From positions 1 to 61,294 of the forward strand of contig CALLUO010000020.1 of the NCBI GenBank assembly GCA_938010425.1: a stretch of DNA of 61,294 nt. The letters run 5' to 3'. How positions within the stretch are numbered: position 1 is the first letter of the stretch; every line of letters starts with the position of its first letter. Under the pieces are notes generated by a model. That model ran no database searches. It saw nothing but the letters and a program-made list of their open reading frames with translations, and was not told where the DNA came from. A program made the position numbers and the translations under genes. The stretch comes from an uncultured Elioraea sp. Lineage in GTDB: Bacteria; Pseudomonadota; Alphaproteobacteria; Acetobacterales; Acetobacteraceae. Below are positions 39,859 to 47,209 of the stretch, in pieces.

Positions 39859-39975
39859 TGCGGATGAGCTCCTCCCTGAGGCGGCAGGACAAAATCGGGT
39901 TCGCGCTGCTAGGCGGCTGACACCAGACTGTCAAGGAACCGGCAGCCAGGTCGCACACAGCAGCGCTTGCAAGGC

Positions 39976-40032
39976 GGGGTGCAACGCGTATAACGCGCTG
40001 CACCCCTGCCGGCCGCATGGCACGCGGCCGGC
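39976..40032 (+). promoter_or_regulatory. Two strong stem-loops in the rpsF leader
   Basis: Back-to-back hairpins: GGGGTGCA/TGCACCCC (39976-40006, closing a smaller internal stem) and the nine-base-pair GCCGGCCGC/GCGGCCGGC with a seven-base loop (40008-40032). They sit between the divergent fabD start and the S6:S18-like motif. They could be bidirectional terminator/attenuator elements or part of a leader; no T-run follows either. Confidence 0.55.
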
Positions 40033-40055
40033 TATGCCCCGTTGCGCGCCCAGGA

Positions 40056-40083
40056 TTGTCCCGTGGCCGAGGGGCTGAGACAA
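40056..40083 (+). promoter_or_regulatory. Putative S6:S18 leader motif of rpsF
   Basis: A stem TTGTC/GACAA (40056-40060 with 40079-40083) encloses a bulged CCG (40061-40063) on the 5' side and a single A on the 3' side, then a second stem TGGCC/GGCTG with loop GAGG. A bulged CCG between two stems just before rpsF is the hallmark of the known bacterial RNA bound by the S6:S18 complex, by which those proteins repress their own operon. It ends 16 bases before the rpsF ATG and leaves the GGAGGG ribosome-binding site just outside, so binding could block initiation. Based on visual folding only. Confidence 0.65.
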
Positions 40084-40099
40084 GCCGGAGGGAAACAGA

Positions 40100-40528
40100 A
40101 TGCCATTGTACGAATGCGTGTTTATCGCACGCAGCGACGCCACGCCGCAGCAGGTCGAGGCCCTCGGTGAACAGATGGCCGAGATCATCGCGCAAGGCGG
40201 CGGTAAGGTGACCAAGCGCGAGTACTGGGGCCTGCGCTCCCTCGCCTACCGGATTAAGAAAAACCGCAAGGGCCACTATATGCTGCTCAATATCGATGCG
40301 CCGTGGCCGGCGGTGGCGGAGATGGAACGCCAACTCCGCCTGAATGAAGATGTTCTGCGCTTCCTCACCGTTCGCGTCGAGGCGCTGGAGGAGGGGCCGT
40401 CAGCCGCAATCGCGCGCCCCTCGCGGGACGATCGGCCGGATCGGCTCGATCGCCCTGCCCGTGGCACGGACCGGGCACCGCGCGCCCAGCGCAGCGACCG
40501 AGCGATGCGGCCCGAACTGACGGAGTGA
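40100..40528 (+). CDS. rpsF: 30S ribosomal protein S6
   Basis: 142 residues. Matches bS6: [18 protein letters not shown] at the start and [20 protein letters not shown], a typical S6 block. The C-terminal ~40 residues form a charged R/D/P tail common in alphaproteobacteria. A GGAGGG ribosome-binding site lies upstream. First gene of a unit running to mlaF. Confidence 0.97.
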
Positions 40529-40531
40529 GCC

Positions 40532-40810
40532 ATGACCGAAATTGACAGCGTCCTGCCTGCCTCTCGCCGGGTTGCCGTCGGTGCCCGACGGCCGTTTTAC
40601 CGCCGCCGCAAATCCTGCCCTTTTTCCGGACCGAACGCGCCGGCGATCGACTACAAAGATGTAAAACTCCTGTCGCGCTACATCAGTGAACGCGGCAAGA
40701 TCGTGCCCTCGCGCATCACCGCCGTATCGGCCAAGAAGCAACGCGAACTCGCCACAGCGATCAAACGCGCGCGCTTCCTCGCTCTCCTGCCCTACGTCAT
40801 CAATACCTGA
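40532..40810 (+). CDS. rpsR: 30S ribosomal protein S18
   Basis: 92 residues. bS18 signature: [31 protein letters not shown], and the closing [20 protein letters not shown]. It forms the S6:S18 heterodimer with the gene just upstream. Three bases separate it from rpsF. The N-terminal 20 residues are longer than in E. coli. Confidence 0.97.
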
Positions 40811-40853: not shown

Positions 40854-41789
40854 TTGCCGAACGCGCGCACAACGGCGATCCTCGCCGCAGGGATTCTCTC
40901 TGCGCTTGCCGCGCTCGTCGCGTTGCGCGGCCTGCCACTCGGTACGGTCGCTTTCTGGTTCTCGGCCGTGCCCCTGTTCGCGGCAGGCTTTGCCTTCGGC
41001 ACCAGTGCAGCAGCGCAGGCGGCGGCGGTCGGGGTGCTGGTCTCGCTGATCTCTGCTGGGCTTGCCGGTTCGGCCGTCCATCTGCTCCTGTTCGGATTGC
41101 CGGTAAGCCTGATGCTGTCGGCGGCTCTGCCGCGATCGACCGGCGCACCGTTAGCACTAGCCTGGCCGTTCGCCCTGCTTGCACTTTGGCCGGCAGGGCT
41201 TCTGGTCGCTGCCGAAATCGCCTTGGCTGGCCAGCCCGGCGGGCTTTCAGGCGTGCTGCGCCAGGCGGTGGGGCAGGCGCTCGAGCGCATGGGGCCGCCG
41301 CCGCAACTCGACATCAACGAGTTTGCGGCGATGATCGTTCGTCTCAAGCCGCTCGCCTTCGCGTTGTGGTTCGCGCTGGTGATGTCGACAAACGCCGCGA
41401 TTGCGCAGCGTCTGGTCGCGTCACGGGGGCTGATGGCAGCCGCGCCGGCGCAATGGTCGATGGCGGCACTGCCGACCTGGTACTGGCCGATTGCGCTGGC
41501 TGCCGCGGTCGCCTCGCTGTTCGTGCCCGGCGAAGCGGGTTTTGTGGTGCGTGGCCTCGCGATGATGCTCGCCGTGCCACTCATCCTGCAGGGGCTTGCT
41601 GTGCTGCACGTTATCAGCCGGGGTCGGCCTGCGCGCCCCGCGCTGCTGGCGGGAGTCTATGTCGGCCTTATCCTGTTTTTCGCTCCCGCCGCTCTCGCCC
41701 TCGCGTGCTTGGGCATTGCGGAGCACTTTCTCAATCTGCGCGGCCGCAAGCCGCCGCCTGGAACCGGGCTTAGGCCCGCGGAGGACTGA
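40854..41789 (+). CDS. DUF2232 multi-pass membrane protein
   Basis: About 311 residues with roughly eight hydrophobic segments, matching the DUF2232 family, often sited between rpsR and rplI in alphaproteobacteria. The start is uncertain: in the gap after rpsR there is no in-frame ATG or GTG, so I used the TTG at 40854, preceded by GGCGGGG about eight bases upstream. The frame stays open upstream through rpsR but that is shadow. Function is unknown; its location suggests expression with ribosomal proteins. Confidence 0.75.
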
Positions 41790-41790
41790 A

Positions 41791-42363
41791 ATGGACGTCA
41801 TTCTTTTGCAGCGCGTCGAAAAGCTCGGCCAAATGGGCGACGTGGTGAAGGTTAAGCCCGGCTACGCTCGCAACTATCTTCTGCCGCAGAAGAAGGCCGT
41901 GCGGGCGACAAAGGAAAACCTCGCCCGCTTCGAAGCCGAGCGGGCGCGGCTCGAGGCGCAGAACCTGAAGCGCCGCGAGGAGGCGGAGCGCGTGGCGGAG
42001 CGCGTGGCAGGGCTCGCCGTCGTGCTGCTCCGTCAAGCGGGCGAAAGCGGTCAGCTCTACGGTTCGGTCAGCGCGCGCGACATCGCCGACGCGACGACCA
42101 AGGCGGGCCTGACCATCACACGCCAGCAGGTCGTGCTCGACCGACCGATCAAAGCTTTGGGGCTCTACCAAGTCAGAATCGTGCTCCATCCGGAGGTGGT
42201 GATCGCGATCACCATCAACGTCGCCCGCACCCTCGAGGAGGCGGAGAAGCAGGCGCGCGGGGAGAGGGTTACGGCGCCAGACGCAGAGGAGCGTGCCAAT
42301 CTGGCCCAATTGTTCGACGGGGCAGCCCCCTTGCCCGGGACCGGCGAACAGCCGGACGTCTGA
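41791..42363 (+). CDS. rplI: 50S ribosomal protein L9
   Basis: 190 residues. bL9 pattern: [20 protein letters not shown], then [19 protein letters not shown], a long charged helix and a C-terminal RNA-binding domain with [13 protein letters not shown]. The ATG at 41791 follows the DUF2232 stop by one base. A Q/D/G-rich tail is slightly longer than in E. coli. Confidence 0.97.
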
Positions 42364-42491
42364 TCGGTCATCACGTCCCTTCCCTCGCGGCGCCGTGGCC
42401 CTTTAGAGTTTCGGCGGCGCGCCGAGGAGAGGCGGCAGAAACTCAAGCCGGGCGACGCTTCCTCCCCAGATCGCGCGCCAGGGAGGTGGGC

Positions 42492-43739
42492 ATGATGATC
42501 GAACGCCTGCTGCGTGACATCATCTCGGCAGGCCGACTCGAACTCCTTTGGCCCGATGGCAGATGCAGCGATTTCGTCGGCCGCGACCCTGGTCCTTTGG
42601 TGCGTGTTCGTGTCCGCGATGCCACGAAAATGCGCCGCATCGCCCTCAATCCCTCCTTGCGCTTCGGCGAGGCGTGGATGGATCACGCCTTCGAGGTCGA
42701 AGACGGGTCGATCTACGACCTGCTTGATCTCTTGCTGCTCAATCGCGCCCGCGGTGCCCGTTCGCCGGCTGGCGCTTGGCTTGAGCGGGTGGAGATGTGG
42801 TTTCGTCGCCTGCAGCAGCACAACCCTGTTTGGCGGGCCAAGCGCAACGTCGCCCACCACTACGACCTCTCGGGGCGTCTTTATGCCCTCTTCCTCGATC
42901 GCGACCGCCAATACTCCTGCGCCTATTTCCGCACGGGAGGCGAGACGCTCGAGCAGGCGCAGGCGGCGAAGAAACGGCACATCGCGGCCAAGCTCGTGTT
43001 GAATCGTCCAGGGCTGCGTGTACTCGACATCGGGTCGGGCTGGGGAGGGCTCGCGCTTACTCTCGCCATGGACTATGGCGCCGAGGTCACCGGCATCACG
43101 CTGTCCGAGGAACAGCATCGCGAGGCGACCGCACGTGTTGCTGCTGCAGGACTTGGCGATCGCGTGCGCTTTTTTCTGCAGGACTATCGCGAGGTGAGCG
43201 GGACCTTCGACCGCATCGTCTCGGTCGGTATGTTCGAACATGTTGGCGTGCCGCACTACGATGTGTTCTTCCGCCGCGTCGCGCACTTGCTGGCCCCCGA
43301 CGGGGTCGCGCTGATCCACGCCATCGGCCGCCCAGAGGGCCCAGGAGTCACCAACGCCTGGCTGCGCAAATACATCTTCCCCGGTGGCTATTCGCCGGCG
43401 CTTTCTGAGGTGTTGCCGTCGATCGAACGGTCCGGCCTGTTGCTGACTGACCTCGAAATCCTTCGCCTCCACTACGCCTTCACGCTCAGGCATTGGCGCG
43501 AACGGTTCCAGCGCAATCGCGACGCCATCGCCGCCCTCTACGACGAGCGCTTCTGTCGCATGTGGGAGTTTTATCTCGCCGCCTGCGAACTCGCCTTCCG
43601 TCATCAGGCGCATTTCGTTTGGCAGGCGCAGCTCGCGCACCGGCAGGATGCCGTGCCGCTGACCCGCGATTACATCACGCATGCGCACGAGGGGGCGGCG
43701 GCTCAGCAAGACGTGTCCCCGCTATCCACAGGGGTGTGA
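42492..43739 (+). CDS. cfa: Cyclopropane-fatty-acyl-phospholipid synthase family protein
   Basis: About 415 residues. SAM-binding motif LDIGSGWGGLAL (~177), CFA blocks NVAHHYDLSGRLYALFLD and YSCAYFRTGGETLEQAQ, and IFPGGYSPALSE. It adds a methylene group across double bonds of membrane lipids. The SAM-methyltransferase core is complete. An AGGGAGG ribosome-binding site precedes the ATG at 42492. The 122-base gap after rplI may hold its own promoter. Confidence 0.92.
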   Translation: MMIERLLRDIISAGRLELLWPDGRCSDFVGRDPGPLVRVRVRDATKMRRIALNPSLRFGEAWMDHAFEVEDGSIYDLLDLLLLNRARGARSPAGAWLERVEMWFRRLQQHNPVWRAKRNVAHHYDLSGRLYALFLDRDRQYSCAYFRTGGETLEQAQAAKKRHIAAKLVLNRPGLRVLDIGSGWGGLALTLAMDYGAEVTGITLSEEQHREATARVAAAGLGDRVRFFLQDYREVSGTFDRIVSVGMFEHVGVPHYDVFFRRVAHLLAPDGVALIHAIGRPEGPGVTNAWLRKYIFPGGYSPALSEVLPSIERSGLLLTDLEILRLHYAFTLRHWRERFQRNRDAIAALYDERFCRMWEFYLAACELAFRHQAHFVWQAQLAHRQDAVPLTRDYITHAHEGAAAQQDVSPLSTGV

Positions 43740-43810
43740 GCGCGCCCGCCCCTCGCGCAGGCGGCGAAGCGCGCTAATCTCGCGTGGTCGTTGCAGGGGA
43801 CCGATTCCGC

Positions 43811-45334
43811 ATGCCGCCATCCATCGCGCCGCCGCGCCCGCATGGCTTTGCTGACGATCCGCTCTCCCTGCTAAAGTTGAGGACTCCGCCGCAGAACCTT
43901 GAAGCCGAACAGGCGCTGCTGGGTGCCTTGCTCGTCAACAACAAGGCTTATGAGCGGGTGGCGGACTTCCTCGCCCCGCAGCATTTCGCTGACCCCGTGC
44001 ACGCGCGCATCTTCGAGGCGATCGTGCGCCGGATCGAGCGCGGCCAGCTCGCCGACGCGGTGACTTTGAAGTCAGATCTTGAGCACGACGGGTTGCTCGA
44101 GGAAGTGGGCGGCACGGCCTATCTTGCCCAACTCGTCGCCGCCACTGTCGGCGTGATCAATGCCGGTGACTATGGGCGAGCGATCCACGACGCCTATCTG
44201 CGTCGTCAGCTGATCGACATCGGCGAGGAGATCGTCAATCGCGCGTTCGGCGACCCTGAGGGGCTCGATGGCGCGGCGCAGATCGAGGCGGCCGAGCAGG
44301 CGCTGTTCGAGATTGCGACGGAAGGTGTCGCCGATCGTAGCTTCATCCCCTTCGATCTCGCCCTGTCCCGCGCCATCGACGCTGCCGAACGCGCCTTCCG
44401 CTCGCCAGGCGGCGTGTCCGGGCTCGCCACAGGGTTTCGCGATCTCGACCAGAAGATGGGCGGGCTGCACGCCTCAGACCTCATCATCCTCGCCGGCCGA
44501 CCGGGCATGGGCAAGACGGCCTTCGCCACTTGCCTTGCCTTCAATGCTGCGCGCGCGGTTGCAGAGGAAGCCGCGCGCACGGGGGCGAAGCGCGCACCGG
44601 CAGTCGCGCTTTTTTCGCTCGAAATGAGCGCAGAGCAGCTTGCCACCCGCCTGCTCGCTGAGCAGGCGCGCGTGAGTTCCGACCGCATCCGCCGCGGCGA
44701 TGTACGGGCAGAGGATTTCGACCGGTTCGTCGAGGCCGCGCGCCGCATCGCCGCCCTGCCGATCCAAATCGACGATACGCCAGCGCTGTCTATTTCCGCG
44801 CTGCGCACGCGCTGTCGGCGGCTGAAGCGCACGCAGGGGCTTGCCCTTGTCGTCGTCGACTACCTGCAACTGCTTCGTCCGGCACCGGGGTCGCGGCCGG
44901 AGAACCGCGTGCTCGAAATCAGCCAGATCACGCAAGGACTGAAGGCGATCGCGAAGGAACTCCATGTTCCGGTGCTCGCTTTGTCGCAGCTCTCGCGCGC
45001 GGTGGAAAACCGCGAGGACAAGCGGCCGCAACTCGCCGATCTGCGCGAATCGGGCACCATCGAGCAAGATGCTGACGTGGTGATGTTTCTTTATCGCGAC
45101 GAATACTATCTCGGCGCGCGAGAACCGAAACTGATGAGCTTCGACAACCAGGCGAAGTTCGAAGAGGCGCACGCGAAGTGGCTATCCGACATGGAGCGCG
45201 TGCACAACGTCGCCGAGCTCATCCTCGCCAAGCAGCGTCACGGGCCGACCGGCAAGATCGAACTCTTTTTCGAGGCCGAGTTCACCCGTTTCGCCGATCT
45301 GGACCGCCAGCATCGTGGCCTTGACGCCGGTTGA
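43811..45334 (+). CDS. dnaB: Replicative DNA helicase
   Basis: About 507 residues. N-terminal primase-interacting domain starts near PPQNLEAEQALLGALL; RecA-like core has Walker A GRPGMGKTAFA (~230), SLEMSAEQLATRLL and VVVDYLQLLRP, and the late SRAVENREDKRPQLADLRESG. Family length. The alr start lies inside its last codons (20-base overlap). A GTG nine codons earlier is an alternative start. Confidence 0.97.
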   Translation: MPPSIAPPRPHGFADDPLSLLKLRTPPQNLEAEQALLGALLVNNKAYERVADFLAPQHFADPVHARIFEAIVRRIERGQLADAVTLKSDLEHDGLLEEVGGTAYLAQLVAATVGVINAGDYGRAIHDAYLRRQLIDIGEEIVNRAFGDPEGLDGAAQIEAAEQALFEIATEGVADRSFIPFDLALSRAIDAAERAFRSPGGVSGLATGFRDLDQKMGGLHASDLIILAGRPGMGKTAFATCLAFNAARAVAEEAARTGAKRAPAVALFSLEMSAEQLATRLLAEQARVSSDRIRRGDVRAEDFDRFVEAARRIAALPIQIDDTPALSISALRTRCRRLKRTQGLALVVVDYLQLLRPAPGSRPENRVLEISQITQGLKAIAKELHVPVLALSQLSRAVENREDKRPQLADLRESGTIEQDADVVMFLYRDEYYLGAREPKLMSFDNQAKFEEAHAKWLSDMERVHNVAELILAKQRHGPTGKIELFFEAEFTRFADLDRQHRGLDAG

Positions 45335-46427
45335 GGCGCTCCCCCCCTCGCAACTGATCGTCGATCTCGATGCGGTGGCAGCGAATTGGCGTCATCTCGA
45401 CGCGCTCGCAGCACCGGGTCGCGCGGCGGCAGTGGTCAAGGCAAATGCTTATGGGCTTGGTGCCGTGCCAGTGGTGCGGAGACTGCTGCGGGAGGGCGTG
45501 CGCCATCTCTTTGTGGCGCGCTTAGAAGAAGCCCTCGCCTTGCGCCCCGAGGTTCCGCCGGAGGTGATGATCGGCGTGCTCAACGGACTTTGTCCGGGCG
45601 AGGAGACAGTGGCAGCGGAAGCTCGGCTTGTTCCGGTCCTAAACGATCTGGGTGCGATCGAACGCTGGGGCGCCGTCGCGTCTGCGCGCGAGACGCGGCT
45701 TCCCGCCATTCTTCATCTTGACACGGGTATGAACCGGCTCGGCCTTGACGGTCGAGAGTTGCAACGGCTCGCGCAAGACCCAAGGCGGCTTGCAGCGATC
45801 GACCTCCGCTTCGTGATGACCCACTTCGTGTCGGCGGATTGTGCAGACGATCCGCGCAATGCGGAGCAGGTCGCGCTGTTTCATGCACGGCGCGCTCTGC
45901 TTCCGCCGTGCCGTGCCTCGATCGCGAACTCGTCGGGGATCTTTCTCGGCTCCATCGCGGCATCCGATCTCGCCCGCCCTGGCGCCGCGCTCTATGGGCT
46001 TAATCCGACACCAGGGCGGCCAAACCCGATGCAGCCTGTGGTTACGGTCGAGGCTCGCATCCTGCAGATGCGCGACATCGAAGCGGGCGAGACGGTCGGT
46101 TACAACGCCACCTGGCGGGCCGAGCGCGCAAGCCGGATCGCCACCATTGCCGCGGGCTATGCTGACGGCTATCAGCGGGTTCTCTCCAATCGCGGCGTAG
46201 GCTGGCTTGCCGGTCGTCGCGTGCGGATCGTGGGCCGAGTTTCCATGGACCTTGTCACTCTCGATGTCACCGATGTCCCTGAGGCCGCGCCTGGTGCCGT
46301 CGTGCAACTGATCGGGCCGGAAATTCCGCCCGACGAGGTTGCCGCTGCCGCTGGCACCAACGGCTACGAGATTCTGACCGCTCTTGGCGCCGCGCGGCAC
46401 CGGCGCGTGTACGTTGGCGCGACGTGA
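45315..46427 (+). CDS. alr: Alanine racemase
   Basis: 370 residues. PLP lysine in VVKANAYGLG (~42), tyrosine in VGYNATWRAE (~262) and ANSSGIFLG/RPGAALYG segments are the alr pattern. It makes D-alanine for peptidoglycan. The GTG start overlaps the end of dnaB by 20 bases, and its stop overlaps the mlaE start as GTGA, so the three are probably translationally coupled. Confidence 0.95.
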   Translation: MALTPVEALPPSQLIVDLDAVAANWRHLDALAAPGRAAAVVKANAYGLGAVPVVRRLLREGVRHLFVARLEEALALRPEVPPEVMIGVLNGLCPGEETVAAEARLVPVLNDLGAIERWGAVASARETRLPAILHLDTGMNRLGLDGRELQRLAQDPRRLAAIDLRFVMTHFVSADCADDPRNAEQVALFHARRALLPPCRASIANSSGIFLGSIAASDLARPGAALYGLNPTPGRPNPMQPVVTVEARILQMRDIEAGETVGYNATWRAERASRIATIAAGYADGYQRVLSNRGVGWLAGRRVRIVGRVSMDLVTLDVTDVPEAAPGAVVQLIGPEIPPDEVAAAAGTNGYEILTALGAARHRRVYVGAT

Positions 46428-47209
46428 CCGTGCTCCTCGATCTGCTGGCTGCCATCGGCCGCGGTGCGTTGGGGCTTGTTTCCGCGGCGGGGTCGGTGGC
46501 CGTTTTTGGTGCCGTCGCCCTCAGCCACGTCGTCCGCCCGCCCTTCTATCCGCGCCTGCTTGCGCGGCAGATGATGGAGATCGGTTATTTCTCCCTGCCC
46601 GTGGTCGCCCTCACCGCGATTTTCTCCGGCATGGTGCTGGCGCTACAGTCCTACACGGGCTTCGCGCGCTTCTCGGCCGAAGGCGCGATCGCCACCGTCG
46701 TCGTGCTCTCCATCACGCGTGAACTGGGCCCCGTGCTCGCCGGGCTGATGGTGGCCGGGCGCATCGGGGCGGCGATTGCGGCTGAACTCGGCACCATGCG
46801 CGTGACCGACCAGATCGACGCTCTGACGACCTTGTCGACGAACCCGATCAAGTACCTGGTCGTGCCGCGCCTCGTCGCAGCGACGATCGTGCTGCCGCTG
46901 CTCGTCATCGTCGCTGACATCCTGGGTGTGCTGGGGGGTTTTATCGTCGGCGTGGCGAAACTCGAGTTTAATCCCGCCACCTACATGCAGCGCACTTGGG
47001 AATTCTTGGAAGTGCAGGACGTCGTCTCCGGGCTCGTCAAGGCAGCGGTGTTCGGCTTCATCATCGCTCTGATGGGCTGCTACCAGGGCTACCATTCGCG
47101 CGGCGGTGCGCAGGGCGTGGGCGCGGCGACGACGAACGCGGTCGTTTCCGCCTCCATCCTCATCCTCACCTTCAACTACGTGATCACTGAACTCTTTTTC
47201 GCACGATGA
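46424..47209 (+). CDS. mlaE: MlaE-type lipid ABC transporter permease
   Basis: 261 residues with five or six membrane helices. YrbE/MlaE pattern: VALSHVVRPPFYPRLLARQM, MEIGYFSLPVVALTAIFSGM, GLMVAGRIGAAIAAELGTMR and VTDQIDALTTLSTNPIKYLV. It is the permease of the system that moves phospholipids across the envelope to maintain outer-membrane asymmetry. It overlaps alr upstream and mlaF downstream (ATGA). Confidence 0.93.
   Translation: MTVLLDLLAAIGRGALGLVSAAGSVAVFGAVALSHVVRPPFYPRLLARQMMEIGYFSLPVVALTAIFSGMVLALQSYTGFARFSAEGAIATVVVLSITRELGPVLAGLMVAGRIGAAIAAELGTMRVTDQIDALTTLSTNPIKYLVVPRLVAATIVLPLLVIVADILGVLGGFIVGVAKLEFNPATYMQRTWEFLEVQDVVSGLVKAAVFGFIIALMGCYQGYHSRGGAQGVGAATTNAVVSASILILTFNYVITELFFAR

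Follow-up and report, generated by a model that had tools for sequence, protein, structure and literature searches.

Gene organisation and predicted leader at the rpsF locus

The window analysed here, a stretch of 61,294 nucleotides, is one contig of a source genome of 2.39 Mb that is 88.6% complete. It contains the gene for ribosomal protein S6, rpsF, followed on the same strand by rpsR, which encodes ribosomal protein S18; the initial annotation had named both genes in this order, and Pfam matches back the two assignments (Table 1). A DUF2232-like membrane protein gene and rplI, the gene for L9, follow (40854 to 42363) and are likely to make up the rest of the core operon after rpsF-rpsR, while on the other side a divergently transcribed acyl transferase gene, fabD-like according to Pfam, lies upstream of the rpsF leader region. 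When the S18 protein of the window is aligned with E. coli S18, the AIKRAR segment, which holds E. coli residues K60, R61 and R63, is seen to be kept, as is the Y23-K24 pair. The sole Rfam match above gathering score in the window is a tRNA gene on the minus strand at positions 2410 to 2493. The source genome can be placed in Acetobacteraceae, since two of its family members, L017 and L026, have rpsF leaders that over 75 nt do not differ from those of L032 (Acetobacteraceae bacterium) and L041 (Plastoroseomonas arctica).

The conserved element upstream of rpsF comprises the whole predicted leader, from about 40001 to 40092. In the MFE fold of this stretch a short helix, H1, has its 3′ arm in the Shine-Dalgarno sequence of rpsF; inside it lie hairpins A and B and, on the 3′ side, a bulge of 13 unpaired nt. 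H1 has only four pairs in the window (CCCU with AGGG); in many relatives its 5′ arm reads UUCCCU or CUCCUU. The loop of hairpin A carries the sequence GGCA (40019-40022). The folding energy of the whole predicted leader does not stand out (z −0.75; equalled by 51 of 200 shuffles).

Table 1. Coordinates of genes and predicted leader features in the window
Feature	Position	Strand	Basis or remark
Probable promoter: −35 CTTGCA 39966-39971, 17-nt spacer, −10 TATAAC 39989-39994	39966..39994	+	Sequence
H1 5′ arm CCCU, predicted to pair with the Shine-Dalgarno	40004..40007	+	MFE fold, RNAalifold without given structure, pair counts
Hairpin A: 40008-16 pairs with 40024-32	40008..40032	+	MFE fold, RNAalifold, pair counts
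UAU linker, hairpins A to B	40033..40035	+	Same in all 43 rows of the family alignment
Hairpin B: GCCCC 40036-40 pairs with GGGGC 40071-75	40036..40075	+	Covariation; apical part variable
Single-stranded bulge UGAGACAAGCCGG	40076..40088	+	CC 40085-86 (+G 40087), putative S18 contact
Shine-Dalgarno GGAGGGA	40087..40093	+	Sequence; 40089-92 is the H1 3′ arm
rpsF, ribosomal protein S6	40100..40528	+	Pfam PF01250, 107.7 bits
rpsR, ribosomal protein S18	40532..40810	+	Pfam PF01084, 90.6 bits
DUF2232-like membrane protein gene	40854..41789	+	24.5 bits, under cut-off 27.8
rplI, L9	41791..42363	+	Pfam
cfa-like (cyclopropane-synthase-like) gene	42486..43739	+	Pfam
dnaB	43784..45334	+	Pfam
alr	45315..46427	+	Pfam
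mlaE	46424..47209	+	Pfam

Upstream of the leader, a probable promoter would place the transcription start near 40001, so that the H1 5′ arm would be among the first bases of the transcript. A loose −10 pattern is present in 33 of the 51 family leaders, a count made without a chance control and with several of the upstream stretches shortened, and in 28 of the 51, again without a chance control, it lies 13-16 nt upstream of the CCC of the 5′ arm. The boxes at 39966-39994 were not picked up by a strict consensus scan for promoters and terminators, which returned about as many matches as in shuffles.

Conservation and covariation of the leader

Stretches preceding rpsF were taken from 111 S6-gene sequences, including the window and two copies from its own genome. 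Candidate leaders were chosen by sequence anchors (GGCTA, CCCTG and similar strings), and 51 of 56 candidates entered alignment A1; those left out were the own-genome copies L001 and L002, the duplicates L032 and L041, and L092, which has no anchor. Every one of the 28 loci of the same genus or family that carry an S6 gene in an initial locus set is present in A1; L008 is without an S6 gene. The family alignment A2 has 43 rows and omits L019, L030, L033, L036, L067, L086, L095 and L097 as short, long or doubtfully aligned forms, all eight of which are matched by the covariance model R1. This model was built from 43 leaders with the window among them, and the 87 bits that the window obtains with R1 are therefore reached by construction. 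A second model, R2, was built from 32 diverse R1 matches. Alignments A4 and A8 were fitted to models and therefore favour the structure.

Family leaders share a 5′ arm with the sequence UUCCCUGCC or a near form, a GC-rich hairpin, the sequence GGCUAUGCCC and a variable hairpin, followed in the 3′ part by a GGGCUGAGACAGCC(A/G)-like stretch and then AGGGAG ahead of the start codon. RNAalifold analysis of a MAFFT alignment of the 51 leaders, to which no structure had been given, returned the same three helices as the MFE fold, comprising 15 pairs, 8 of which show changes on both sides. Across 43 family leaders the structure is 96.4% paired and contains 63 double-change cells compared with 17.0 in shuffles (0/500), and versions of the structure slid along the alignment are 34.4-59.6% paired. 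In the 93-leader class alignment, which was fitted to the model, pairing reaches 95.6% and double-change cells number 241, versus 66.0 in shuffled alignments (0/500), with both-side changes at all nine pairs of hairpin A. Six same-genus leaders are 97.2% paired in this structure, a value equalled in 33 of 500 shuffles; on their own these leaders are not decisive because they vary too little.

The helices differ in the way that they vary. Within the genus, the hairpin B pair 40037/40074 occurs both as C-G and as U-A, and in the family changes from G-C to A-U and from C-G to U-A are found in this hairpin. H1 hardly varies within the family; among the 32 diverse leaders one of its pairs is UA, CG or UG. 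The linker between the hairpins is UAA in L030 and UAG or another sequence in many more distant leaders. GGCA or GGC is found in the hairpin A loop of nearly all family leaders in alignment A2, and the loop GGCA is the complement of UGCC in the junction. At the 3′ end of the bulge, the sequence CC followed by a purine is present in every leader, both in the family (51/51; A in 28, G in 23) and in the class (93/93; A in 75, G in 18). The window has CCG at this place (40085-87), and the distribution of the third base suggests that the bulge tolerates CCA.

Distribution of the leader in Alphaproteobacteria

R1 matches 188 of 200 family genomes, with one match in each among the matches listed, and a further R1 search covered 52 sources. 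In all 29 newly fetched family loci with an R1 match the S6 gene lies directly downstream, as established by script for 27 and by hand for L143 and L154, loci that end at a contig end. Twelve of the 200 family genomes gave no R1 match; the one inspected among these twelve, a small-genome family member (G035), retains H1, hairpin A and CCA in its leader (L173), which has a stretch of well over 100 nt where hairpin B would stand. At the level of the class, R1 matches 20 of 289 alphaproteobacterial genomes and R2 matches 93, once in each genome and across approximately 60 family labels (by hand count), leaving 196 of the 289 without an R2 match. All 93 R2 matches are located on the strand of the S6 gene and end between −2 and +7 nt from the S6 start, and S18 was found in 89 of the 93 matched stretches, most of which are only about 1 kb in length. 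In a sample of the phylum, R1 matched 4 of 200 genomes, all of them Alphaproteobacteria, but the class was known for 24 of the 200 rows, so that this count implies nothing for other classes.

Named Hyphomicrobiales loci that were searched with R1 gave no match at the leader. Thirteen Hyphomicrobiales leaders (alignment A7: L058, L071, L080, L083, L088, L089, L098, L101-L105 and L110) have another conserved core in common, AGTCGnnGAGGCTTAGC(C)GCCG, and carry a TCCTTTCTTC-like arm that is complementary to the Shine-Dalgarno region. R1 had no match in the six of these 13 loci that were searched (L058, L071, L083, L101, L103 and L104). The Hyphomicrobiales element is possibly a second alphaproteobacterial type of S6:S18 leader.

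Comparison with known S6:S18 binding RNAs

Ribosomal-protein switches of the S6:S18 type are described as having a very wide distribution. The E. coli rpsF leader, which scores 110.1 bits against the Rfam model RF02893, consists of a stem that holds the Shine-Dalgarno sequence, one hairpin and a 12-nt bulge on the 3′ side, UGAAUAAUCCGU. PMC4647458 reports that translation of rpsF in E. coli is repressed by S6 and S18 jointly and that two conserved cytosines are needed, names K60, R61 and R63 as the S18 contact residues for CC, and gives K60 and R63 of E. coli S18 as those expected to contact the conserved cytosines. The leader described here resembles the E. coli leader in several respects: both are situated directly upstream of rpsF with the start codon a few nt after, both have an H1 helix whose 3′ arm contains the Shine-Dalgarno sequence and whose 5′ arm is CCUUGCC-like, with the hairpin beginning at its GCC, and both have a 12-13-nt 3′ bulge with CC adjoining the Shine-Dalgarno. 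The bulge of the window, UGAGACAAGCCGG, can be aligned with that of E. coli, UGAAUAAUCCGU, and both open with UGA; the alphaproteobacterial leader L243 has UCUGAUUAUCCGUAAGGAGCA where E. coli has CUGAAUAAUCCGUAAGGAGCA. The two leaders differ in that the E. coli form has a single hairpin, whereas the alphaproteobacterial form adds hairpin B and the linker, and in that E. coli has CCG, whereas 75 of the 93 class leaders have CCA. Because it has two hairpins, both with compensatory changes, the alphaproteobacterial leader represents a variant and not the E. coli form itself. The predicted structure makes it a device of the E. coli rpsF-leader kind, in which the extra hairpin creates a three-way junction.

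When E. coli sequence was searched with the models, the rpsF leader was the best match both for R1 (11.2 bits, E 0.0065 in 481 nt) and for R2 (14.3 bits, E 0.0042 in 1901 nt), although these are weak matches with rough E values, and in a larger search R1 placed the E. coli leader at E 4. In the R1 and R2 matches alike, the E. coli sequence ends at the AUG of rpsF, its hairpin aligns with hairpin A, and hairpin B is a deletion. In the opposite direction, RF02893 (gathering score 37 bits), the scoring of which had been proposed in the initial annotation, has no match in the window and, with E values of up to 1 allowed, none in 13 related loci, and it places 0 of 289 class genomes above its cut-off, the single weak match (L166) being in a locus with no S6 gene. 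Among 14 control genomes the model matched E. coli only and missed B. subtilis, so RF02893 is a narrow model. The B. subtilis leader is itself said in PMC4647458 to bind S6:S18.

A second known binding site is that of 16S rRNA, which PMC4647458 locates in the loop adjoining helix 23a, with C719 and C720. The leader shares with this site an unpaired CC next to a helix, contacted by S18 in the rRNA according to the same paper. A 16S-like segment, identified by a short pattern alone, was found in 3 of 30 genomes; it reads ACCGG in all three, whereas their leaders have CCA, and the leader therefore does not copy the rRNA site base by base. These three genomes give no sign of co-variation between the third base of the leader and 16S rRNA. 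A longer 16S pattern matched 0 of 200 in each of two runs, either because it is wrong for the family, as is probable, or because the sequences searched lack the rRNA. The Chlorobi S6:S18 r-leader, as characterised in PMC7247131, is a lineage-specific element before rpsF that is thought to bind S6:S18 and is reported as unlike rRNA. By description, the alphaproteobacterial leader can be likened to it in place and lineage-specificity; whereas the Chlorobi leader is presented there as unlike rRNA, the alphaproteobacterial leader resembles the widespread E. coli type.

A candidate S6:S18-responsive switch and its alternatives

Taken together, our analysis makes it very probable that the rpsF-rpsR leader (approximately 40001-40092) acts as an S6:S18-responsive translational switch that hides the rpsF Shine-Dalgarno sequence, and the leader is likely to carry a docking site for S6:S18. 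Support comes from the predicted structure, the covariation, the place before rpsF and the likeness to the E. coli leader. In the mechanism that we infer, with respect to S6:S18 binding and translational repression as well as the transcription start, the first nucleotides of the mRNA would pair with the rpsF Shine-Dalgarno to form H1. When S6:S18 exceeds free 16S rRNA, the heterodimer would bind the bulge through S18, contacting CC, and bound S6:S18 would stabilise H1 and block initiation of rpsF translation. Repression of rpsR, and perhaps of rplI, would follow from coupling to rpsF.

An alternative that we consider improbable is that the structure is real but has a ligand other than the S6:S18 pair, for example L9, or S6 or S18 alone, or that it has no ligand and the hidden Shine-Dalgarno sequence just sets a low basal level of translation. 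Binding of the leader by S6:S18 is a deduction, L9 is encoded in the same operon and the third base differs from that of E. coli in most class leaders, all of which would fit such an arrangement; on the other hand, the CC between the hairpin and H1 is invariant as in the E. coli element, which needs both S6 and S18 according to PMC4647458, and the S18 contact residues are conserved, which favours the S6:S18 pair as the ligand.

The initial annotation had also placed an S6:S18-type regulatory RNA before rpsF, and the class of element that it proposed is well supported, although a different and longer structure carries that support. It had described a 28-base element at 40056-40083 that folds into two stems with a binding bulge, CCG, on the 5′ side. 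The letters and positions are as described, with TTGTC (40056-60), CCG (40061-63), TGGCC (40064-68) and a loop of GAGG followed on the 3′ side by GGCTG (40073-77), a bulged A78 and GACAA (40079-83), and the element ends 16 bases upstream of the rpsF ATG at 40100. The two-stem fold is formed by an isolated 53-nt stretch, but its energy is ordinary (z −0.57; 56 of 200 shuffles as good) and it does not appear when the whole leader is folded; two of its ten pairs are G-U. Conservation of the two stems, to be sought by aligning the leaders of relatives, did not emerge: they are 77.6% paired in the six same-genus leaders, with 208 of 500 shuffles as high, and 46.7% paired in the 43 family leaders, with 319 of 500 shuffles as high, so that the pairs are no better kept than in shuffles. 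These pair counts in genus and family rule out the 28-nt hairpin as a conserved RNA. The proposed binding bulge at 40061-63 is already CTG in the same-genus leader L004, and the conserved CC(G) sits instead on the 3′ side, adjoining the Shine-Dalgarno sequence as in the E. coli leader. The GACAA arm falls within the conserved single-stranded bulge. It is thus highly unlikely that this local hairpin, with its CCG, is the S6:S18 site: the letters are present and a short stretch does fold in this way, but the unconserved pairs, the change in L004, the fold of the whole leader and a CCG on the side opposite to that of the E. coli leader all speak against it. The comparative sequence evidence indicates that a conserved RNA at this place is real, but that it is other than the 28-base hairpin.

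Least credible of all is the possibility that the conserved letters represent promoter or other DNA-level elements with incidental pairing, since, even though GGCTAT (40030-35) resembles a −10 box and the region separates two divergent genes, the fabD-like one and rpsF, the helices contain compensatory changes and there is a separate promoter-like box pair upstream. GGCTAT was rejected as a −10 box because of this upstream box pair and the compensation in the helices on either side of it.

Downstream genes and implications

The cfa-like gene, dnaB, alr and mlaE are co-directional with the core operon, and their membership in the regulated transcript, for which gene order is the basis, is unproven, as is the reach of the control to dnaB, alr and mlaEF that the initial annotation had raised as a possibility. 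In the stretches fetched from six relatives, cfa follows rplI in five, and dnaB, alr and mlaE are present in four. The rplI and cfa reading frames in the window are separated by a gap of 122 nt (42364-42485), within which there is an inverted repeat, GAGTTTC...GAAACTC. This repeat could be a processing or attenuation site.

The legend to Fig. 1 of PMC7247131 (2020) remarks on the "conspicuous absence of a S6:S18 r-leader in Alphaproteobacteria", and adds that promising alphaproteobacterial motifs had been seen and were unpublished. We found no later description of an alphaproteobacterial S6:S18 leader among the papers listed in searches of the open literature, which did not extend to the founding studies (Matelska 2013; Fu 2014). 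On balance we favour the view that the missing alphaproteobacterial leader is a widespread three-way-junction form, in which S18 would read CC-purine rather than CCG and to which two parts have been added, hairpin A, whose GGCA/GGC loop is conserved in the family, and a hairpin B that grows freely. The E. coli leader and this one would then derive from one proteobacterial ancestor, with a hairpin gained or lost. Now that a structure is defined and R2 finds it in 93 of 289 sampled class genomes, always before rpsF, the alphaproteobacterial gap becomes testable. The leader also shows how a switch of this type can keep its predicted binding bulge while the surrounding architecture changes.
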